The position numbers and the translations under genes were made by a program. Shown in pieces: positions 11,021 through 25,381 of a stretch of 33,266 bases of DNA (position 1 is the first letter of the stretch; the number at the start of each line of letters is the position of its first letter). Location: NCBI RefSeq assembly GCF_000310225.1, contig NZ_AMXF01000024.1, forward strand, positions 1 to 33,266, given 5' to 3'. The notes beneath the pieces are model-generated. The model saw nothing but the letters and a program-made list of their open reading frames with translations, had not been told where the DNA came from and did not search any database. Source of the DNA: Thauera phenylacetica B4P (lineage in GTDB: Bacteria; Pseudomonadota; Gammaproteobacteria; Burkholderiales; Rhodocyclaceae).

Positions 11021-11674
11021 ATGTTCGTCGAAAACATCATGACCCGGGAGGTGTTGCATGTCGCTCCGGAAGCCTCGTTCTCGCAGGTTTCCGAGATCAT
11101 GCGACTGAAGAAGGTGCGTCACGTGCCGGTGATCGACCAGGACCGCAAGGTGCTGGGGATCATCTCGCACCGCGACGTGCAGCGTGCCCAGCCTTCCATG
11201 ATCACGACGCTCGACGTCGGCGAGGTGAAGTACCTGCTGTCCAAGATCACCGCGGCGGACATCATGCACAAGTCGGTGGTGAGCTGCTCGCCGCGCACGC
11301 AGATCGAGGAGGCCGCGCGCATGATGCGGCCGAAGAAGCTGGGCTGCCTCACCGTGGTGGACGACGCCGGTCGCCTGGTGGGCATCGTCACCAGCGTGGA
11401 CCTGCTCGACTTCTTCCTCGACATCACCGGCTGCTGGGTCGAGGGCGCGACGCGGATCACCGTCAAGCTGGCGGATCGCGCTGGCCAGCTCGCCGCGCTG
11501 CTCGCCTCGGTCAATGCACAGGGCGGTTACATCGTCTCGGTGGTGTCGCCGCGCACGCCGCAGTCCGAGGGCCTGCGCACCGCGACCATCCGCTTCGAGG
11601 CGAAGGATGCCGGTGCGGTGGTGCAGGGCCTGCGCGAGGCGGGATACGAGCTGAGCGTCGATCAGACGGCGTGA
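11021..11674 (+). CDS. CBS-CBS-ACT domain protein (AcuB-like sensor)
   Basis: This 217-residue cytoplasmic protein has a CBS pair, first domain about residues 5-55 (ENIMTREVLHVAPEASFSQVS) and second about 78-135 (ADIMHKSVVSCSPRTQIEEA). A C-terminal ACT-like domain follows at about 142-215 (TRITVKLADRAGQLAALLASV). CBS pairs bind adenine nucleotides such as AMP, ATP or NAD, and ACT domains bind small ligands, often amino acids. The architecture matches the AcuB group, whose biochemical role is poorly defined. It is transcribed divergently from the pad operon, from a leader with two shared operator copies, so it probably belongs to the same regulon. A role as an energy or metabolite sensor for the pathway is an inference. 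Its TGA stop lies inside a heptamer repeat array. Confidence 0.8.
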   Translation: MFVENIMTREVLHVAPEASFSQVSEIMRLKKVRHVPVIDQDRKVLGIISHRDVQRAQPSMITTLDVGEVKYLLSKITAADIMHKSVVSCSPRTQIEEAARMMRPKKLGCLTVVDDAGRLVGIVTSVDLLDFFLDITGCWVEGATRITVKLADRAGQLAALLASVNAQGGYIVSVVSPRTPQSEGLRTATIRFEAKDAGAVVQGLREAGYELSVDQTA

Positions 11675-15363: not shown

Positions 15364-16431
15364 ATGAGCACCAAACCGTATCGCTGGATGATGGTGGAGC
15401 CGGGTCGACCGATGGTCCGCACCGAGTTCGAGATCGGCGAACTGGCCGCTGACCAGGTGGTGGTCGAGGTCGCCGGCTGCGGCGTCTGCCACACCGACCT
15501 CGGCTACTACTACGACGGCGTGCGCACCAACCAGCCGCTGCCGCTCGCGCTCGGTCACGAGATCAGTGGTCGGGTGGTGAATGCGGGCAGCGCGGCGGGG
15601 CAGTGGGTCGGCCGCGCGGTGATCGTGCCGGCGGTGATGCCTTGCGGCACCTGCGAGCTCTGCACCTCGGGACACGGCACGATCTGCCGCGCCCAGGTGA
15701 TGCCCGGCAACGACATCCAGGGCGGCTTCGCCTCCCACATCGTGGTGCCGGCACGCGGCCTGTGCGCGGTCGATGAGCAGCGTCTCGCCGCCGCCGGCCT
15801 GCAACTCGCCGACGTCTCGGTGGTGGCAGACGCGGTCACCACGCCCTATCAGGCGGTGACGCAGGCGGGCGTCGAGCCCGGCGACGTCGCGATCGTGATC
15901 GGCGTCGGCGGTGTCGGCGGCTATGCGGTGCAGATCGCCAATGCCTTCGGCGCGAGCGTGGTGGCGATCGACGTCGATCCGGCCAAGCTCGAGCTGATGT
16001 CGAAATACGGCGCTGCGCTGACGCTCAATGCCCGCGAGGTGACCGGTCGCGACCTCAAGAAGGCGATCGAGGCGCACGCCAAGGCCAACGGCCTGCGCAC
16101 CACGCGCTGGAAGATCTTCGAGTGCTCGGGCAGCGGCGCCGGACAGACCAACGCGTACAGCCTGATCAACCACGGCGCCACGCTCGCGGTGGTCGGCTTC
16201 ACGATGGACAAGGTCGAGGTCCGCCTCTCCAACCTGATGGCCTTCCACGCCCGCGCGCTCGGCAACTGGGGCTGCCTGCCCGAGTACTACCCGCCTGCGC
16301 TCGACCTGGTCCTCGACGGCCGCATCAACCTCGCCAACTTCGTCGAGCGCCACCCGCTGGCGCAGATCAACGAGGTCTTCGAGGCGGCCCACGCCCACAA
16401 GCTGACCCGGCGCGCGATCCTGACCCCCTGA
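15364..16431 (+). CDS. had: 6-Hydroxycyclohex-1-ene-1-carbonyl-CoA dehydrogenase
   Basis: This 355-residue protein is a zinc-dependent medium-chain dehydrogenase. Catalytic zinc motifs include CGVCHTD (C42) and GHE (H65). The structural zinc loop is [15 protein letters not shown]. The NAD-binding motif [28 protein letters not shown] ends in an Asp, consistent with NAD+. It oxidises 6-hydroxycyclohex-1-ene-1-carbonyl-CoA to the 6-oxo compound, the step between Dch and Oah. The start ATG at 15364 has GGAGGAC upstream. It is the first gene of the had-oah-dch-bcr operon, the order known from Thauera, and this context is what separates it from generic alcohol dehydrogenases. Confidence 0.92.
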
Positions 16432-16484
16432 TTCCCGCATCCCCTTCCAGACCGACAAGAGAGCAGACAGAGGAGCCCTACGAG

Positions 16485-17618
16485 ATGAAAGAGACGACGC
16501 AACGCGTGATTGACCAGACCGCCCCCAAGCACTTGGTCGACCACAACCTGGTGCCCGAGGCCGTGGTGCCGGGCGTGATCTATGAGAAGCGCCCCGCGCG
16601 CAACCTGAAGGGCGAGGTCGTGCCCGGCCTCTACAACGCCTGGATCTGGCTGGACAACCCCACGCAGTACAACTCCTATACCACCGACATGACGAAGGGC
16701 TTGATCCTCGCCTTCCGCGCCGCGTCCTGCGCCCGCGACGTCGCCACGGTGGTGTTCACCGCGGTCGGCGACAAGGCCTTCTGCACCGGCGGTAACACCA
16801 AGGAGTACGCCGAGTACTACGCCGGCAACCCGCAGGAATACCGCCAGTACATGCGTCTCTTCAACGACATGGTGTCGGCGATCCTGGGGTGCGACAAGCC
16901 GGTGGTGTGCCGCGTCAATGGCATGCGCATCGGCGGCGGCCAGGAGATCGGCATGGCGGCGGACTTCACCGTCGCCCAGGACCTCGCCAACTTCGGCCAG
17001 GCCGGACCCAAGCACGGCTCGGCCGCGATCGGCGGCGCCACCGACTTCCTGCCGGTGATGATCGGCTGCGAGCAGGCCATGGTGTCGGGCACGCTGTGCG
17101 AGCCCTTCTCGGCGCACAAGGCCTACCGCCTCGGCATCGCCTCGCAGATCGTCCCGGCGCTCAAGGTCGACGGCAAGTTCGTCGCCAACCCGCTGGTGAT
17201 CACCGACCGCTACCTCGACGAGTTCGGCCGCATCATCCACGGCGAGTTCAAGACCGGCGACGAGCTGGCCGCCGGCAAGGAAGTGCTCAAGCGCGGCGAG
17301 ATCGATCTCTCCCTGCTCGACGAGGCGGTCGAGAAGCTGTGCGCCAAGCTCATCTCCACCTTCCCCGAGTGCCTGACCAAGAGCTTCGAGGAACTGCGCA
17401 AGCCCAAGCTCGACGCCTGGAACCGCAACAAGGAAAACAGCCGCGCCTGGCTCGCGCTCAACATGATGAACGAGGCCCGCACCGGCTTCCGCGCCTTCAA
17501 CGAGGGCACCAAGGAGACCGGCCGCGAGATCGAGTTCACCGACCTGCGCCAGGCGCTGGCCGTCGGTACGCCCTGGACGCCCGAGCTGATCGAAAGCCTG
17601 ATGCCGGGGGCGAAGTGA
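16485..17618 (+). CDS. oah: 6-Oxocyclohex-1-ene-1-carbonyl-CoA hydrolase (ring opening)
   Basis: This 377-residue protein is a long member of the crotonase family. It carries the oxyanion-hole type segments AFCTGGNTKEYAEYY and RVNGMRIGGGQEIGMAADF, and a FGQAGPKHGSAAIGG stretch. It adds water and cleaves the ring of 6-oxocyclohex-1-ene-1-carbonyl-CoA to give 3-hydroxypimelyl-CoA. The ATG at 16485 was chosen because AGAGGAG lies about ten bases upstream and the family N terminus begins there; the frame stays open further upstream, inside had, without support. The next gene, dch, overlaps its stop codon by one base. Confidence 0.92.
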   Translation: MKETTQRVIDQTAPKHLVDHNLVPEAVVPGVIYEKRPARNLKGEVVPGLYNAWIWLDNPTQYNSYTTDMTKGLILAFRAASCARDVATVVFTAVGDKAFCTGGNTKEYAEYYAGNPQEYRQYMRLFNDMVSAILGCDKPVVCRVNGMRIGGGQEIGMAADFTVAQDLANFGQAGPKHGSAAIGGATDFLPVMIGCEQAMVSGTLCEPFSAHKAYRLGIASQIVPALKVDGKFVANPLVITDRYLDEFGRIIHGEFKTGDELAAGKEVLKRGEIDLSLLDEAVEKLCAKLISTFPECLTKSFEELRKPKLDAWNRNKENSRAWLALNMMNEARTGFRAFNEGTKETGREIEFTDLRQALAVGTPWTPELIESLMPGAK

Positions 17619-18394
17619 TGGGCGAGGCGACCTCTCCGCTCAAGGCCTGGCTGGAGCGCGACGGCGGGCTGCTCCGCCTGCGCCTGGCGCGGCCCAAGGC
17701 GAACATCGTCGATGCCGCGATGATCGGCGCGTTGCTGGAGGCGCTCGGCGCCCACCTGGCCTCGCCGACGCTGCGCGCGGTGCTGCTCGACGCCGAGGGT
17801 CCGCACTTCAGCTTCGGCGCCAGCGTCGATGAACACATGCCCGACCAGTGCGCGCAGATGCTGAAGACCCTGCATGCGCTGGTGCGGCAGATGCTCGACA
17901 GCCCGGTGCCGATCCTGGTTGCGATCCGCGGCCAGTGCCTCGGTGGCGGCCTGGAGGTGGCGGCGGCGGGCAACCTGCTTTTCGTCGCGCCGGATGCGCG
18001 CCTCGGCCAGCCGGAGATCCGCCTGGGCGTGTTCGCCCCCGCGGCCTCCTGCCTGCTGCCGCCGCGCGTCGGGCAGTCGCGTGCCGAGGAGCTGCTGTTC
18101 TCGGGACGCAGCATCGACGGCGCCGAGGCGTTCCGCATCGGCCTGGCCGACGTGCTCGCCGACGACCCCGAGGCGGCCGCGCTGAAGTGGTACGACGAAC
18201 ATCTTGCTGCGTCGAGCGCCAGCTCGCTGCGTTTCGCGGTGCGTGCCGCGCGCTGCGACCACGTGCCGGCGATCAAGCAAAAACTGGAAACCGTGGAGGC
18301 CATGTATCTCGAGGAGCTGATGGCCAGCCACGATGCGGTGGAAGGTCTACGGGCCTTTCTTGAGAAGCGTTCTGCAAACTGGGAGAACCGTTGA
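17618..18394 (+). CDS. dch: Cyclohexa-1,5-diene-1-carbonyl-CoA hydratase
   Basis: This 258-residue protein is a standard-length crotonase-family enzyme. It shows FSFGASVDEH and IRGQCLGGGLEVAAAGNLLFVA, with LGQPEIRLGVF after it. It hydrates the dienoyl-CoA produced by benzoyl-CoA reductase to 6-hydroxycyclohex-1-ene-1-carbonyl-CoA, the substrate of Had. The ATG at 17618 shares its A with the TGA of oah, so the two are translationally coupled. Assignment as Dch rather than a generic enoyl-CoA hydratase rests on its place between oah and bcrC. Confidence 0.91.
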   Translation: MGEATSPLKAWLERDGGLLRLRLARPKANIVDAAMIGALLEALGAHLASPTLRAVLLDAEGPHFSFGASVDEHMPDQCAQMLKTLHALVRQMLDSPVPILVAIRGQCLGGGLEVAAAGNLLFVAPDARLGQPEIRLGVFAPAASCLLPPRVGQSRAEELLFSGRSIDGAEAFRIGLADVLADDPEAAALKWYDEHLAASSASSLRFAVRAARCDHVPAIKQKLETVEAMYLEELMASHDAVEGLRAFLEKRSANWENR

Positions 18395-18396
18395 CC

Positions 18397-19557
18397 ATGA
18401 GTACGGCAGACATCATCGCGCGCTGTGAAGCGCTCTACGAAGACCTCGATTTCACCGCCGCAAGGAAGTGGAAGGAGGCCGACCCCTCGCGTAAGGTAAT
18501 CGCCTACATGCCGGTGTACGTGCCGCGCGAGATCATCCACGCCGCGGGGATGCTCCCGCTTGGCATCATGGGCGGCGGCGACGGCCTGGAGGTCATCCAC
18601 GGCGACGCCTACTACCAGAGTTACATCTGTCGCATCCCACGCTCGACCATCGAGCTGGGTCTGTCCAAGCGCATGGATTTCGTAGACGGCATGCTGTTCC
18701 CCAGCATCTGTGACGTGATCCGTAACCTGTCCGGCATGTGGAAGCTGCTGTTCCCGGGCAAGTACGTGCGCTACTTCGACGTGCCGCAGAACTACAAGGA
18801 CGACGTCGGTGGCAGCTACTACACCAACGAGCTGAACGAACTGCGCGAAGGTCTCGAGCACCTGTCCGGGCGCAAGATCAGCGACGATGCGCTGCGCGCC
18901 TCGATCGAGGTCTACAACGAGAACCGCAAGCTGGTGCAGGCCGTGTATGCCATGCGCTCCCGCGAGCCTTGGAAGGTGCCCTCGTCCGAGGTCTACCTGC
19001 TGATGCGCGCCGGCCTGGTGGTGCCCGTCGAAGAGCACAACCAGATCCTGCGCGACTACCTGGCCGCGGCCGAGAAGGTCCAGGCCTCCAAGCGCGACAA
19101 CTGCCGCGTGGTCATCAACGGCTCGTTCTGCGAGCAGCCGCCGCTCAACCTGATCAAGTCGATCGAGCTCGCCGGCTGCTACATCGTCGATGACGACTAC
19201 ATGATCGTGCATCGCTGGCTGCGCAACCCGGTCTCGACCAGCGGCGACCCGATGCAGAACCTGTCGCTCGCCTTCCTGCACGAGTCGATCGCCACCGCGG
19301 CCAAGTACGACGACAAGGAAGAGGACAAGGGCAAGTACCTGCTCGAGCAGGTGCGCGGCAACGCCGCCGAAGGCGTGATCTTCGCCATGCCCAGCTTCTG
19401 CGACCCGGCGCTGCTCGAACGCCCGATGCTGGCCGACCGCTGCTCGGAGCACAACATCCCCTACATTTCCTTCAAGTACGCCGAGAACTCCGGCCAGATG
19501 CAGCCGATCCGCGAGCAGGCTGGCACCTTCGCCGACTCGATCAAACTCTGGAGCTAA
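18397..19557 (+). CDS. bcrC: Benzoyl-CoA reductase, gamma subunit (BcrC)
   Basis: This 386-residue protein belongs to the 2-hydroxyacyl-CoA dehydratase D-component family (HgdB/BcrB/BcrC). It contains conserved cysteines in YICRIPRSTIELG, FPSICDVIRNL, GSFCEQPP and PSFCDPALLERP, which are candidate ligands for the cluster in the ring-reducing BC module. ATG at 18397 was chosen over TTG at 18391, because GGGAG at 18381 is better spaced for the ATG. The protein starts MSTADIIARCEAL. With BcrB it binds benzoyl-CoA, while BcrAD supplies ATP-driven low-potential electrons. It follows dch with a two-base gap. Confidence 0.93.
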   Translation: MSTADIIARCEALYEDLDFTAARKWKEADPSRKVIAYMPVYVPREIIHAAGMLPLGIMGGGDGLEVIHGDAYYQSYICRIPRSTIELGLSKRMDFVDGMLFPSICDVIRNLSGMWKLLFPGKYVRYFDVPQNYKDDVGGSYYTNELNELREGLEHLSGRKISDDALRASIEVYNENRKLVQAVYAMRSREPWKVPSSEVYLLMRAGLVVPVEEHNQILRDYLAAAEKVQASKRDNCRVVINGSFCEQPPLNLIKSIELAGCYIVDDDYMIVHRWLRNPVSTSGDPMQNLSLAFLHESIATAAKYDDKEEDKGKYLLEQVRGNAAEGVIFAMPSFCDPALLERPMLADRCSEHNIPYISFKYAENSGQMQPIREQAGTFADSIKLWS

Positions 19558-19559
19558 TC

Positions 19560-20858
19560 ATGAGCGCAGCCACCTCCCCCGAAGTCATCAAAGAATCCTC
19601 GATGTTGAAGCAGAAAGGGATGATCGCGGGCAACTACGATCGTCTCACCGGCACCAAGGAATCTGGCGAGAAGGTCGTGTCGACCTTCGTCCCCGGCAAC
19701 CTGAATGAACTGATCATGTGCTTCGACATGGTCAACAACCTGCCCGAGACCAACGCCATCCAGAACGGCATGCGCAAGGTGTCCGGCGGCATGATCATGG
19801 ACGCCGAGAAAGCCGGCCACTCCGAGGACGTGTGCACCTACGTCAAGGCCGACATCGGCATGATGGGCCGCGGCAACATCGCCCCCAACGGCAAGCCGAT
19901 GCCCGCCCCGGACATGCTGCTGCTGTCCTACACCGGCTGCTTCACCTTCATGAAGTGGTTCGAGCTGCTGCGCCACGAGTACAAGTGTCCGACCGTGATG
20001 CTGCAGATCCCGTATCAGGGCGACGGCAAGATCACCAAGAACATGCGTGACTTCGTCGTCAAGCAGCTCAAGGAAGAAGTCATCCCGATGTTCGAGAAGG
20101 TCTCGGGCGTCAAGTTCGACATCGACCGCCTGCGCGAATACCTGAAGAACTCGGCGAAGGCCGAGGACAACCTGGTGTGGGTGCTCGAGAGCGCGAAGAA
20201 CCGTCCCTCGCCGATCGATGCCTACTTCGGCGGCGTGTATTACATCGGCCCGATGTTCACTGCCTTCCGCGGCACCGCCGATGCGGTCGAGTACTACGAC
20301 CTCGTGCGCAAGGAGATCGAGCAGCGCATCCGCGAGGGCAAGGGCCCGATCACGCCCGAAGGCGACATGAAGGAAGAGAAGTACCGCCTGGTCGTCGAGG
20401 GTCCGCCGAACTGGACCAGCTTCCGCGAGTTCTGGAAGCTCTTCTACGACGAGGGCGCGGTGGTGGTGGCGAGCTCCTACACCAAGGTGGGCGGCCTCTA
20501 CGACCAGGGCTTCCGTCACGACCCGAACGATCCGCTGGGCACGCTGGCCGACTACTGCCTGGGTTGCTACACCAACAACAACCTGCCGCAGCGCGTCGAA
20601 CTGCTCGAGAAATACATGAACGAGTACCAGGCCGACGGCCTGCTGATCAACTCGATCAAGAGCTGCAACAGCTTCTCGGCGGGTCAGCTGCTGATGATGC
20701 GCGAGATCGAGAAGCGTACCGGCAAGCCGGCGGCGTTCATCGAGACCGACCTCGTCGATCCGCGTTATTTCTCGCACGCAAACGTCAAGAACCGCCTGGA
20801 GAGCTACTTCCAGATGGTCGATCAGAAACGCAGCGGCGCGTCGCTGGCAGCCGCGTAA
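19560..20858 (+). CDS. bcrB: Benzoyl-CoA reductase, beta subunit (BcrB)
   Basis: This 432-residue protein is the second HgdB-family subunit. It shows [20 protein letters not shown], conserved YCLGCYTNN, and [21 protein letters not shown] near the C terminus, all carrying likely cluster-ligand or structural cysteines. With BcrC it forms the module that carries out the two-electron dearomatisation of benzoyl-CoA to the cyclohexadienoyl-CoA. The ATG at 19560 lies two bases after the bcrC stop, and bcrA follows after ten bases. The ATP-dependent class I enzyme is indicated, as distinct from the tungsten BamB-type found in strict anaerobes. Confidence 0.93.
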
Positions 20859-20868
20859 GGAGGGCATC

Positions 20869-22188
20869 ATGGAATGTTTCGTCGGAATTGATCTGGGGTC
20901 CACCACGACCAAGGCGGTCGTCATGGACGACAAGGGGCAGGTGCTTGGTCGCGGCATCACCAACTCCCGCTCCAACTACGATACCGCCGCACGTGTCTCC
21001 AAGCTCGAGGCCTTGATCGATGCCCGCCTGAGCCTGATCCGGCGCGAGCTCGACAAGGAACCGGTGCTGGCTGGCCGGGTCGATGAGATTCTCGGTGGCC
21101 TGACTCGCAACTTCCGTCGCGAGCAGTTCATCGAGCAGCTCGGCGACCTCGAGCAGACCTGCATCGCCAACGTCGAAGGCCCGCGTTTCGCCGGCAAGGA
21201 AAAGGCGATCACGGCTGCGCTGACCGAAGTCTTCCGCCGCCTGCGCGACGAGGAGTCCGACCAGCTGTTCGCGCCCGGCGCGCAGCGCAAGTCGGACTTC
21301 TTCCGCGACCTCGCCGGTTCGCGCTTCATGCAGATCGGCGAAGAAGTGGCCCGCGATGCTGGCATCCCCTTCGACCACCTGCTGCACATGTACGACAAGT
21401 CGATCATCGAGGTCGAGAACCGTCCGCCCTCGGGCGACATGAACCGCAAGTTCCGCACCGCGATGGAGCGGGTGCGCGGCGAGCTCTCCGGTGCCGACCT
21501 CGACACCGCCGCGCTCGGCGCCCCGATCGACGCCGCGCTCGATGTCGACATGGTCGAGCGCTACGTCGTCGGCACCGGCTACGGCCGCGTCCGCCTGCCC
21601 TTCCCGAAGGAGCACATCCGCTCCGAGATCCTCTGCCACGGCCTGGGCGCCCACCTGATGTATCCGAAGACCCGCACGGTGCTCGACATCGGCGGCCAGG
21701 ACACCAAGGGCATCCAGATCGACGAGAAGGGCATCGTGGTCAACTTCCAGATGAACGACCGCTGTGCCGCCGGCACCGGCCGCTACCTGGGCTACGTCGC
21801 CGACGAGATGAACATGGGCCTGCACGAGCTCGGCCCGCTCGCGATGAAGGCGACCAAGTCGATCCGCATCAACTCGACCTGCACGGTGTTCGCCGGCGCC
21901 GAGCTGCGCGACCGCCTGGCGCTGGGCGACAAGCGCGAGGACATCCTCGCCGGCCTGCACCGCGCCATCATGCTGCGCGCGATGTCGATCATCTCGCGCT
22001 CGGGTGGCATCACCGACGAGTTCACCTTCACCGGCGGCGTGGCCAAGAACGAGGCCGCGGTCAAGGAGTTGCGCCAGCTCGTCAAGGAAAACTACGGGGA
22101 GGTGAAGATCAACATCGACCCGGATTCGATCTATACCGGTGCGCTTGGGGCTTCCGAATTCGCCCGCCGCGCCGTCGTGGAGGCTTGA
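20869..22188 (+). CDS. bcrA: Benzoyl-CoA reductase, alpha subunit, ATPase/electron activase (BcrA)
   Basis: This 439-residue protein is a member of the BadF/BadG/BcrA/BcrD (ASKHA-fold) ATPase family. Motifs are the phosphate-binding [18 protein letters not shown] at the N terminus, [15 protein letters not shown], and the two cluster cysteines C299 (DRCAAGTGR) and C338 ([10 protein letters not shown]). The 39-residue distance between these cysteines equals that between C130 and C169 in BcrD. Together they would hold the [4Fe-4S] cluster at the BcrA-BcrD interface. It is longer than BcrD because of a large insert at about residues 50-240. ATP hydrolysis drives electron transfer from ferredoxin to the BcrBC module. 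Confidence 0.94.
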
Positions 22189-22190
22189 AA

Positions 22191-23039
22191 ATGACCATCA
22201 CCGCAGGCATCGACATCGGCACCGGCGCCGTCAAGACCGTCCTCTTCCGCGTTGAGGGCGACAAGACGGAGTGGCTGGCCAAGCGCAACGACCGCATCCG
22301 TCAGCGCGACCCCTTCAAGCTCGCCGAGGAGGCCTACCACGCGCTACTCGAGGAGGTTGGACTGAAGGCCTCGGACGTGGATTACGTCGCCACCACCGGC
22401 GAGGGCGAGAGCCTCCACTTCCACACCGGTCACTTCTACTCCATGACCACCCACGCCCGCGGCGCGGTGTACCTCAACCCCGAAGCCCGTGCCGTGCTCG
22501 ACATCGGCGCGCTGCACGGGCGGGCGATCCGCAACGACGAGCGCGGGAAGGTCGAGACCTACAAGATGACCAGCCAGTGCGCGTCCGGATCGGGTCAGTT
22601 CCTCGAGAACATCGCGCGCTACCTCGGCATCGCCCAGGACGAGATCGGTTCCTTGTCGACCCAGGCCGACAACCCCGAGGTGGTGTCGAGCATCTGCGCG
22701 GTGCTCGCCGAGACCGACGTCATCAACATGGTCTCGCGTGGCATCACGGCACCCAACATCCTCAAGGGCATCCACATCTCGATGGCCGGTCGCCTCGCCA
22801 AGCTGCTCAAGTCGATCGGCGCGCGCGAAGGCGTGGTGCTCTGCACCGGCGGCCTGGCGCTCGACGAGGGTCTGCTGAAGACGCTCAACGAGTCGGTCAA
22901 GGAGCAGAAGATGAATGTGACCGCCTTCAACCACCCCGACTCGCCCTTCGCCGGCGCGATCGGCGCGGCCCTGTGGGGTGCCTTCCGCCACGAGAAACTC
23001 GCGCGCCTGGGCGGGCAGCCGCTCGCCGCCGCGGCCTGA
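22191..23039 (+). CDS. bcrD: Benzoyl-CoA reductase, delta subunit, ATPase/electron activase (BcrD)
   Basis: This 282-residue protein is the smaller ASKHA ATPase of the pair. It shows TAGIDIGTGAVKTVLF, VLDIGALHGRAIR and the cluster cysteines C130 (SQCASGSGQF) and C169 (SSICAVLAE). ATG at 22191 was chosen because GGAGG at 22179-22183 is well spaced; the in-frame TTG at 22185 is too close to it. It overlaps nothing but follows the bcrA TGA by two bases. With BcrA it couples hydrolysis of ATP to delivery of single electrons to benzoyl-CoA. Confidence 0.94.
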   Translation: MTITAGIDIGTGAVKTVLFRVEGDKTEWLAKRNDRIRQRDPFKLAEEAYHALLEEVGLKASDVDYVATTGEGESLHFHTGHFYSMTTHARGAVYLNPEARAVLDIGALHGRAIRNDERGKVETYKMTSQCASGSGQFLENIARYLGIAQDEIGSLSTQADNPEVVSSICAVLAETDVINMVSRGITAPNILKGIHISMAGRLAKLLKSIGAREGVVLCTGGLALDEGLLKTLNESVKEQKMNVTAFNHPDSPFAGAIGAALWGAFRHEKLARLGGQPLAAAA

Positions 23040-23064: not shown

Positions 23065-23307
23065 ATGGCCCTGCTCATCAATGACGACTGCACCGCGTGC
23101 GATGCCTGTGTCGAGGAGTGCCCGAACGAGGCGATCACCGCCGGCAACCCGATCTACGTGATCGATCCGAACAAGTGCTCCGAGTGCGTCGGTGCCCACG
23201 ACGAGCCGCAGTGCGTGCTCGTCTGCCCGGCCGACTGCATCAAGGATCACCCGGACTACCGCGAATCGCAGGACGAACTGCAGGCGAAGTACGACAGCCT
23301 GCACTGA
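23065..23307 (+). CDS. fdx: 2[4Fe-4S] ferredoxin, electron donor to benzoyl-CoA reductase
   Basis: This 80-residue ferredoxin has CTACDACVEECP (C9, C12, C15, C19) and a second group CSECVGAHDEPQCVLVCP. The spacing of eight residues between the second and third cysteines of the second group is typical of the Chromatium (Alvin) type, with one very low-potential cluster. In Thauera aromatica a ferredoxin of this kind connects KorAB to BcrABCD. Position immediately after bcrD, with AGGAGGA upstream of ATG 23065, supports this. Confidence 0.93.
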   Translation: MALLINDDCTACDACVEECPNEAITAGNPIYVIDPNKCSECVGAHDEPQCVLVCPADCIKDHPDYRESQDELQAKYDSLH

Positions 23308-23363: not shown

Positions 23364-23828
23364 ATGACTGCGAATACCGAAATCAAGCTGCGGCCGTTGG
23401 CCGCAGGCGATCTGGCGGCGGTCACCCGCCTCGACGCGACCAACGGCGGCGAGAGCCGCGCCGGCTTCTTCGAGCGCCGCCTCCAGGCCGAGCAGCAGAG
23501 CCCCGCGGGCTTCTTCTCGTGCGTGGCCGAGCGTGGCGGCGAGGTCGCCGGTTTCCTGCTGGGCCACCTGCTGGACGGCGAGTTTGGCGGCCTGGAACGC
23601 GTCGCGGTGCTCGACGCCGTGGCGATCGACCCCGCCGCCCAGCGCCAGGGCCTTGCCCGCAAGCTGGTCGGCGAGTTCGACCGCAACGCGCGCGAACGTG
23701 GCGCCAGCGAGATGCGCACCCAGGCGCAGTGGGATCGTCCCGGTCTGGTCGAGTTCTTCTCCGCGGCCGGCTTCCGCCTTTCGCCGCGCCTGGTGCTTGA
23801 GCGCCCGACCGAATACGTGAACTTCTGA
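23364..23828 (+). CDS. GNAT-family N-acetyltransferase, first of a tandem pair
   Basis: This 154-residue protein shows the GNAT fold pattern. These are an N-terminal IKLRPLAAGDLAAVTRLD, VAERGGEVAGFLLGHL (beta 2-3), LDAVAIDPAAQRQGLARKLV (beta 4 plus the acetyl-CoA pyrophosphate loop QRQGLA), and C-terminal FFSAAGFRL. It aligns along its length with the next gene, sharing VAExxGxVAGFL, GEFG, RTxxxWxRxGLxxF and GFR. It is transcribed with the bcr genes. The substrate is unknown: protein lysine acetylation, small-molecule acetylation, or an acyl-CoA-dependent reaction are all possible. The known RimI/Pat-type control of acyl-CoA synthetases in phototrophic benzoate degraders makes protein acetylation a reasonable hypothesis. 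Confidence 0.82.
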   Translation: MTANTEIKLRPLAAGDLAAVTRLDATNGGESRAGFFERRLQAEQQSPAGFFSCVAERGGEVAGFLLGHLLDGEFGGLERVAVLDAVAIDPAAQRQGLARKLVGEFDRNARERGASEMRTQAQWDRPGLVEFFSAAGFRLSPRLVLERPTEYVNF

Positions 23829-23863
23829 GCTCACGTCCGGAAACGACAACCTGGAGATCAGCG

Positions 23864-24409
23864 ATGACCACGCGTCCGCATCCCACCACCAAGCAACTGC
23901 TGGACCAGTTCAACAACGAGCCCGACTACAGCGACGTCAGCCAGGACGACGCCGAGGCCTTGTCGCGCGACCGCATCCCGGTGCGCTCGCTGACCGCGGC
24001 CGACTTCGACGCCGTCGTGCGCATCGACCGTCGCAGCACCGGCCATGACCGCAGCGCCTACTACCGCCGCAAGTTCGACGAGGCGCTCGGCGAGTCCGGC
24101 GTCCGCGTCTCGGTTGTCGCCGAGCAGGACGGCATGGTCGCGGGCTTCCTGATGGCACGGGTCGACTTCGGCGAGTTCGGCCGCGCCGCCACCGCCGCGG
24201 TGATCGACACCATCGGCGTCGATGCGGCGGCCAGCGGCAAGCACGTCGGCCGTGCGCTCGTGTCGCAGCTGCTCGCCAACCTGACCTCGCTGCACGTCGA
24301 GTCGGTGCGCACCGAGGTCGAGTGGAACCGCTTCGGCCTGCTGCGCTTCCTCGACCGCTGCGGCTTCCGTCCCGGCCAGCAGCTGTCGCTGTCGCGCCCG
24401 CTCGTCTGA
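23864..24409 (+). CDS. GNAT-family N-acetyltransferase, second of a tandem pair
   Basis: This 181-residue protein resembles the preceding gene but has an extra ~35-residue, Asp/Gln-rich N-terminal extension (HPTTKQLLDQFNNEPDYSD). Its GNAT core reads IPVRSLTAADFDAVVRID, VVAEQDGMVAGFLMARVD, IDTIGVDAAASGKHVGRALV and FLDRCGFRPGQ. The acetyl-CoA loop GKHVGRA lacks the first Arg/Gln of the usual Q/RxxGxG/A motif (Lys instead). It may therefore be the less active or regulatory partner. It follows the first GNAT gene by 35 bases and is most simply a duplicated, diverged pair that might form a heterodimer. Confidence 0.8.
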   Translation: MTTRPHPTTKQLLDQFNNEPDYSDVSQDDAEALSRDRIPVRSLTAADFDAVVRIDRRSTGHDRSAYYRRKFDEALGESGVRVSVVAEQDGMVAGFLMARVDFGEFGRAATAAVIDTIGVDAAASGKHVGRALVSQLLANLTSLHVESVRTEVEWNRFGLLRFLDRCGFRPGQQLSLSRPLV

Positions 24410-24484: not shown

Positions 24485-25195
24485 ATGGCTTTTGATGGAA
24501 AACTGGCCGGACAGGTCGCGATCGTCACCGGCGGCGCACGCGGCATCGGGCGCACGATCACCGATGCGCTGGTCGCGCGCGGCGCGCGGGTTCATGTCTT
24601 CGACATGACCGACAGCAACGAGTCGGAGGGCGTGCTGCACCGGGTGAACGTGGCCGATGCGCAGTCGGTCGCCGACGCGGTCGCGCAACTTCCCGAGCCG
24701 GCGACGCTGCTGGTCAATAACGCGGGCATCACCCGTGACCGCAGCCTGCTGAAGATGAGCGACGACGAATGGCGCTCGGTGCTCGACGTGAATCTGAGCG
24801 GTGCCTTCCACATGCTGCGCGCCTGTGCGCCCGGCATGATCGCGGCCGGCAGCGGCCGGATCGTCAACATCACCTCGATCAACGGCCTGCGCGGCAAGTT
24901 CGGCCAGGCCAACTACACGGCGGCGAAGGCCGGCATGATCGGTCTCACCAAGACCGCCGCGCGCGAGCTCGGCCCCAAGGGCATCACCGTCAACGCGGTC
25001 GCGCCCGGCATGGTCATGACCGAAATGGCGCGCGCGCTGCCGGCCGAGGTGCTCGAGCGGGCACTGCAGGAGTCGGTGATGCGCGAACTCGCCACCCCGG
25101 ACGACATCGCCGCGGCGGTCGTCTTCCTGCTGTCGGACATGGCGCGCATGATCACCGGCGAGGTGATCCGGGTGGACGCCGGGCAGTACGTCTGA
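24485..25195 (+). CDS. Short-chain dehydrogenase/reductase (FabG/PhaB-like)
   Basis: This 236-residue protein is a classical SDR. It has TGGARGIGR near residue 15, NNAG at 78-81, S131, Y144 and K148 of the catalytic set, and a final GEVIRVDAGQYV. D40 at the end of the second beta strand favours NAD(H) over NADP(H). The ATG at 24485 has GGAGAGGGA upstream. It is the last gene of the bcr operon. By position it could be the 3-hydroxyacyl-CoA dehydrogenase for 3-hydroxypimelyl-CoA, the product of Oah, but SDR sequence alone cannot prove the substrate; a general 3-oxoacyl reductase is the alternative. Confidence 0.8.
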   Translation: MAFDGKLAGQVAIVTGGARGIGRTITDALVARGARVHVFDMTDSNESEGVLHRVNVADAQSVADAVAQLPEPATLLVNNAGITRDRSLLKMSDDEWRSVLDVNLSGAFHMLRACAPGMIAAGSGRIVNITSINGLRGKFGQANYTAAKAGMIGLTKTAARELGPKGITVNAVAPGMVMTEMARALPAEVLERALQESVMRELATPDDIAAAVVFLLSDMARMITGEVIRVDAGQYV

Positions 25196-25381
25196 AACAT
25201 CGCAAAGCGGCATGGGCAGCCGCATTGCGCGTAGCATGCATCACGCCCGCGGGGCGCGGAATCGTCTACCATTGAGACGCTTTTCGTGGAACCGCAGGTA
25301 TCGGGTTTCATCGGGTGGCAAGAAGGGCGGCCCGTCATGGTCAGGCGGGTCGTCTAATCCATAACGACCGGAGGAGATACC
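25196..25381 (+). other. Spacer between the bcr operon and the transporter genes
   Basis: This contains an imperfect hairpin (GCAAAGCGGC at 25202-25211 with GCCGCATTGC at 25219-25228), which could end the bcr transcript although no T run follows. Neither the FNR-like box nor the CGTTNACGTNAACG motif occurs here. GGAGGAG at 25371-25377 is the ribosome binding site of the next gene. No clear promoter was recognised. Confidence 0.4.

Follow-up and report, generated by a model that had tools for sequence, protein, structure and literature searches.

Paired GNAT proteins encoded beside class I benzoyl-CoA reductase genes: a candidate heterodimeric acetyltransferase with a possible regulatory role

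Pat and KatA of Rhodopseudomonas palustris are GNAT acetyltransferases of anaerobic benzoate catabolism, and Pat has an extra large domain. GNATs with two domains in one chain (tandem GNATs) include the proteins of PDB entries 2WPX (clavulanic acid pathway), 7Q3A (MAB_4324), 2C27 and 1OZP (mycothiol synthase) and 5KGA (glucosamine N-acetyltransferase). According to the available text of VanDrisse & Escalante-Semerena (2018, PMC6191541), BadL of R. palustris acetylates aminobenzoates, acetamidobenzoates lift the repression of badDEFGAB by BadM, and BadL has the homologues MmBadL and GmBadL. Neither the tandem GNAT fold nor a GNAT encoded in an aromatic cluster is new. Here we describe two adjacent genes of Thauera phenylacetica B4P, GNAT-A and GNAT-B (A and B hereafter), which resemble BadL in being PF00583 GNATs encoded in a benzoyl-CoA reductase cluster. 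The large domain of Pat is absent from A and B in Pfam.

The GNAT pair in the Thauera operon

The window, that is, the whole stretch of 33,266 nucleotides that was analysed, is the entire contig C24 of a host genome of 5.02 Mb in 681 contigs. Its plus strand carries had, oah and dch for the next pathway steps (15364–18394), followed by bcrC (18391–19557), bcrB (19560–20858), bcrA (20869–22188), bcrD (22185–23039) and fdx (23065–23307). The four bcr genes are above the NCBIfam equivalog cut-offs, and by these matches the bcrC-bcrB-bcrA-bcrD set encodes a class I benzoyl-CoA reductase; fdx, directly 5ʹ of A, encodes a dicluster ferredoxin of the YfhL type (NCBIfam NF033683, above cut-off). The original prediction placed two mutually similar GNAT genes between fdx and a short-chain dehydrogenase/reductase (SDR) gene of this operon, and both open reading frames were found there on the plus strand: A at 23364–23828 (154 aa, ATG at 23364, stop ending at 23828) and B at 23864–24409 (181 aa, ATG at 23864, stop ending at 24409). 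The SDR gene (24485–25195, plus strand, ATG at 24485) is of the FabG/PhaB type and had no equivalog match, remaining under the cut-offs shown. The spacing is 56 nt between fdx and A, 35 nt between A and B, and 75 nt between B and the SDR gene, and a scan of the fdx–SDR interval revealed nothing resembling a promoter or terminator on the plus strand. A weak terminator-like hairpin follows 3ʹ of the SDR gene (25263–25279, plus strand); the region holds three such hairpins on both strands against a mean of 1.0 in shuffles, which is itself a weak signal. Beyond the SDR gene lies a branched-chain-type ABC transporter set, and farther 5ʹ in the window are kor genes, a molybdopterin oxidoreductase gene, a padE-type gene and paaK. 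A gene for a CBS-domain protein (11021–11674) separates the kor genes from that for the molybdopterin oxidoreductase.

Both proteins belong to the GNAT superfamily, with PF00583 matches of 46.2 bits for A and 36.4 bits for B against a gathering score of 20.7, and both fell below every NCBIfam cut-off listed. They share 35% identity, with a local alignment score of 225 where 500 shuffles of B reached at most 58; judged by this alignment, A and B are paralogues. The dN/dS ratio was about 0.22 for A and about 0.22 for B in comparison to genome G048, and 0.21 for A and 0.18 for B in comparison to Azoarcus taiwanensis (L097), and both genes look to be evolving under purifying selection. Chance likeness or a gene-calling artefact was rejected on account of the alignment score far above the shuffles and the low dN/dS. 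When the host genome was searched with A, the only two matches were A and B themselves, and the closest named relative was a Thauera MAG with 98% identity in B. The segments VAExxGxVAGFL, GEFG, RTxxxWxRxGL and GFR, predicted as common to the two proteins, were indeed found in both, and B has the acidic N-terminal extension (about 30 residues) and the changed loop that had been ascribed to it, with SGKHVG in place of QRQGLA of A. The acetyl-CoA loop of GNATs follows the motif Q/R-x-x-G-x-G/A; the loop of A fits it, and that of B is without the usual glycine, yet B keeps GEFG.

Distribution and linkage to bcr genes

A scan of a species-genome collection with an alignment of B and of a related single GNAT (S, see below) yielded 443 relatives, from which we retained the 80 best. 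A was directly upstream of B in 79 of these 80 loci, as one open frame in 38 and as two genes in 41, a count that speaks for the nearest relatives of B (best 80 of 443). The exception, L173, has B alone, on a contig that begins at the N-terminus of B. Taxa with the pair among the best 80 of 443 included Thauera, Azoarcus, Paramagnetospirillum, Rhodovulum, Rhodoplanes, Roseovarius, Ruegeria, Motiliproteus, Neptunomonas, Azospirillum and Geothermobacter. In Paramagnetospirillum marisnigri, two fused A-B genes (L103 and L104) lie about 29 kb apart on one contig. A plasmid search by tblastn gave no match.

Reductase or next-step genes were present in the fetched flank of 50 of the 79 loci, upstream on the same strand in 21, convergent in 23, downstream in 5 and divergent in 1. 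Where bcr genes were missing from the flank (29 loci), bcrC above cut-off was found elsewhere in 10 of 12 named genomes, which were picked mostly for long flanks and are a non-random choice. Many of the 80 named loci also had fdx-like sequence close to the pair; bcrD was within 8 kb in 44 of 79 loci and an SDR group within 8 kb in 45 of 79. Of those 45 SDR genes, 39 were within 0.7 kb: 28 in divergent orientation to A and 11 downstream in the same orientation, as in the window. Linkage of the GNAT pair to bcr genes was seen in Alpha-, Beta- and Gammaproteobacteria and also in Geothermobacter.

In a sample of 150 genomes of the family, a GNAT together with a BcrC-like protein was present in 26, the GNAT only in 1, the BcrC-like protein only in 6 and neither in 117, at thresholds chosen post hoc (E ≤ 1e-10 for a relative of A, ≥ 90 bits for BcrC-like). 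Seven family genomes had bcrC above the curated cut-off, and the A-B pair was present in all seven, as separate genes in G000 (the host), G103, G048 and G033 and as one open frame in G116, G006 and G119. In a class sample of 289 genomes (the class of G340), bcrC above cut-off was found in 11. A strong B (E ≤ 1e-50, a threshold set after seeing the lists) occurred in 9 of these 11 vs 0 of the 278 others (Fisher 1.6e-15), with at most 13 candidates scored per genome, so that a B could have escaped notice among the bcrC-negative genomes. Together with G381 of the phylum sample, there were 12 such bcrC-positive genomes, nine of which had full A and B; in G709 the A-B frame is interrupted by a contig end, and G796 and G654 are without A-B and have a BadL-like protein alone. 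Over the 7 family genomes and these 12, the pair was present in 17 of 19 bcrC-positive genomes, so the predicted companion of the reductase is conserved with bcrC rather than absent from most of its genomes.

Architecture and relatives of the pair

The fused form made up 42 of 85 pairs (the pairs of G103 and G033 are omitted from the 85, being on the same contigs, by length, as L095 and L097), and the fused or split state changed 14 times on the tree of pairs. For a fused protein of Motiliproteus (L155), AlphaFold2 returned a model with pLDDT 87.9 and pTM 0.83, from an alignment of 36 rows representing 36 of the 42 fused sequences. The best PDB matches of this model were tandem GNATs (2WPX/2WPW, 7Q3A, 4ZM6, 5KGA and 2C27), and the match to 2WPX had Z 21.8 and rmsd 4.1 over 291 residues. 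Fused A-B is thus predicted to pack two GNAT domains in one chain, like the known tandem GNATs, with a near whole-length structural match between them. It differs from them in that the sequence identity is only about 16%, the gene neighbourhood is different, and A and B are separate genes in Thauera and in about half of the surveyed pairs. Many single-domain GNATs aligned to a range that runs from one terminus of the L155 model to the other, as judged from the first and last residues given, and such whole-range alignments could reflect a swapped C-terminal strand. B modelled alone, from fewer sequences than the fused model, had pLDDT 74 and no C-terminal strand.

The suggestion that A and B form a heterodimer is backed by these natural fusions, with their repeated changes of state, and by the predicted tandem fold of the fused form. 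Because the pairing is conserved, the switches between split and fused forms are repeated and the fold is that of a tandem protein, we treat A and B as one unit, and we infer with considerable confidence from the fused forms that Thauera A and B make a heterodimer equivalent to the fused protein found elsewhere.

The two halves differ in their motifs. The loop glycine was retained in 79 of 85 A and 39 of 86 B in our motif survey, whereas the Glu of GEFG was retained in 80 of 85 A and 80 of 86 B (with Asp in the others), in 24/24 S and in 32/32 proteins of a BadL-like group (P). Counted per pair (n = 85), the loop glycine was present in both halves in 32, in A alone in 47, in B alone in 6 and in neither in 0. 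The absence of pairs that had lost both (0/85) gave Fisher p 0.006 with ancestry ignored. On the tree of pairs, however, the state changed twice in A and nine times in B, and the complementarity of the loops, which depends on two independent losses in A, is not significant with ancestry counted. With so few losses in A, we stop short of claiming that every pair needs an intact half. In G709, which is outside the 85, the truncated A seems by eye to be without the loop glycine, and its B keeps it. B was the more conserved half in the sample, with 43 columns at 90% conservation vs 17 in A, partly perhaps because the loci were picked by B.

The closest characterised relative of A-B is probably BadL, a precedent that the original prediction did not name. 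In this comparison the P group, chosen by genomic context, was the stand-in for BadL. A P protein used as query matched A of the window at E 4.9e-11 with about 25% identity, which indicates that the A-B and P groups are related. In a tree of 132 of the 227 domain rows, made by a quick method, P formed its own clade (support 100), with A, B and S outside it; S formed a clade (99) as sister to B (97), B came together (91), and A was in two pieces, the stray one made up of the long-branched A proteins from G116, G006 and G119. P carries WEFG where A-B carries GEFG, and P is a single-domain protein with an Rrf2 neighbour, whereas A-B is a tandem beside fdx, bcr or SDR genes. An Rrf2 (BadM-like) gene was within 1.5 kb of P in 37 of 37 rows examined (L068–L071, L089–L093, 24 of L094–L173, L217, L218, L220 and L225), and a Pfam confirmation was run on two of these Rrf2 genes. 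P with Rrf2 was also observed in G288 and G396, two sampled genomes where the BcrC search gave nothing at E ≤ 1e-60, and the BadL-BadM-like pair may thus extend beyond benzoate clusters.

Since A-B is in a clade separate from the BadL-like group, the function of BadL cannot simply be transferred to it. Moreover, P co-occurs with A-B in 24 of 80 loci (in one of them, L173, the contig carries B only), which suggests that A-B would not simply repeat the job of BadL; in G340 the P gene adjoins the fused A-B gene. P and A-B are distinct components of shared clusters. P is absent from the host genome, where a BadM-like query matched nothing on contig C24 at E ≤ 1e-5 and gave only weak hits on other contigs, the best Rrf2-like one having 35% identity over 84 residues. 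A BadM ligand would therefore have no receptor here. The absence of the paired regulator and the coexistence with BadL-BadM-like pairs speak against A-B as a mere copy of BadL, and, with P standing for BadL, we rejected that identity on these grounds and on the separate clades. Another contig of the host genome (C45, L230 1471–2454) encodes a 328-aa protein resembling shikimate kinase, whose N-terminal half looks by eye like a helix-turn-helix, as in BzdR/BoxR.

S, a third GNAT group of 24 rows, was found in the other GNAT-bearing genomes of the family; it belongs to the same family as A-B but is a single protein, without A, instead of a pair. The loop glycine was retained in all 24 rows, with GEFG or GEYG. 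In 21 of the 24 rows, S was on the same contig as a BcrC-like gene below the cut-off and started 3.4–4.1 kb after it; in G065 and G078 the two were on different contigs, and G017 was without such a match. From these BcrC matches below the cut-off, the S clusters appear to be of the bzd type, and the position of S after a ferredoxin gene would make it bzdS in the published order bzdNOPQMSTUVWXYZA. In L078 (9780–14182), S is preceded by a ferredoxin-like ORF and followed by ORFs resembling, by eye, a PHP/amidohydrolase protein and a large Fe-S protein.

Candidate roles of the pair

We propose tentatively that A-B is one heterodimeric acetyltransferase of class I benzoyl-CoA reductase clusters with a regulatory role, in which A and B would be the two halves of a single enzyme serving these clusters. 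Acetyl-CoA would be bound and used in A, and B would shape the acceptor site or the dimer. This division of labour, with the predicted acetyl-CoA site of the Thauera protein in A, is fairly probable, because the loop of B is without the usual glycine yet GEFG is kept. The acceptor would be a small amine, probably aromatic as for BadL, whose product, or the absence of it, could tune the pathway, so that acetyl-CoA, the pathway end product, would feed back on an ATP-costly and oxygen-sensitive route; by analogy, an acceptor of this kind with such feedback is possible, and we hold to it with reserve. The linkage to bcr is most naturally read as pointing to pathway control as a candidate role. Since A-B is akin to the BadL-like proteins, we slightly favour a small amine over a protein as the acceptor, although a protein is allowed by the bcr and fdx linkage and by a weak likeness to Ard1 and RimI.

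The nearest competing explanation, conceivable if somewhat doubtful, is that A-B is instead a protein acetyltransferase of Bcr, the ferredoxin or an acyl-CoA ligase, modifying a lysine or the N-terminus and so switching the ATP-consuming reductase or the substrate supply. The original prediction named PadJ, a benzoate-CoA ligase or Bcr as possible targets of lysine acetylation, and none of the present results indicated this. The tight linkage to bcr and fdx genes would fit such a role, as would the solved relatives of the B/S profile: YpeA (E 4e-9), archaeal Ard1/SSO0209 (1e-6) and RimI (about 1e-3), the latter two named as protein N-terminal acetyltransferases. Acyl-CoA synthetases of benzoate catabolism in R. 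palustris are lysine-acetylated (Crosby 2010, as cited in the available part of PMC8388817); however, BadL homologues left BadM unacetylated in the conditions tested, according to the available text of PMC6191541. Furthermore, no deacetylase or ligase gene was a constant neighbour among the recurrent gene groups that were identified, which are a minority, and A alone has weak solved matches, the best being 3jvn at E 4e-4.

The anaerobic benzoate pathway yields aryl- and alicyclic acyl-CoA esters, and A-B might move benzoyl or another ring acyl group to an amine, freeing CoA from dead-end acyl-CoA. The glycine N-acyltransferase of mammals works in this way, and in the available part of PMC12509317 it is described as binding benzoyl-CoA and appears under GNAT terms; the SDR neighbour could serve a side-product route. 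We nevertheless regard this activity as improbable, as the related BadL uses acetyl and the A-B sequence shows no sign of a larger acyl pocket. That A and B are passengers, ordinary GNAT genes caught in the operon, is highly improbable and was rejected: GNATs are common, but the pair covers several classes, strong B was found in 0 of 278 bcrC-negative genomes (at most 13 candidates scored in each), the split and fused states changed repeatedly, and dN/dS is low in A and B.

The heterodimeric acetyltransferase with a regulatory role thus remains our preferred reading. On a bolder reading, which we consider rather unlikely, nearly every class I benzoyl-CoA reductase cluster would carry an obligate heterodimeric or fused GNAT, or a single-gene counterpart of it, as a missing regulatory part of the system; this GNAT would sense the acetyl-CoA formed at the end of the pathway and acetylate a reductase-ferredoxin component or a dedicated ligand, setting the rate of the ATP-driven ring reduction.

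The original prediction regarded the pair as the best candidate for an undescribed component, and this holds within the open-licence literature: the pair genuinely and consistently accompanies bcr, and no paper on it was found. Neither the A-B subfamily, nor its split and fused forms, nor the link to class I benzoyl-CoA reductase was found described in open-licence papers; the available parts of PMC5852087, PMC2988823 and PMC7285207 contain nothing on these GNATs. Class I benzoyl-CoA reductase is central to anaerobic aromatic degradation, and the presence of the pair in 17 of 19 bcrC genomes hints at a step or control tied to acetyl-CoA that may have gone unnoticed.
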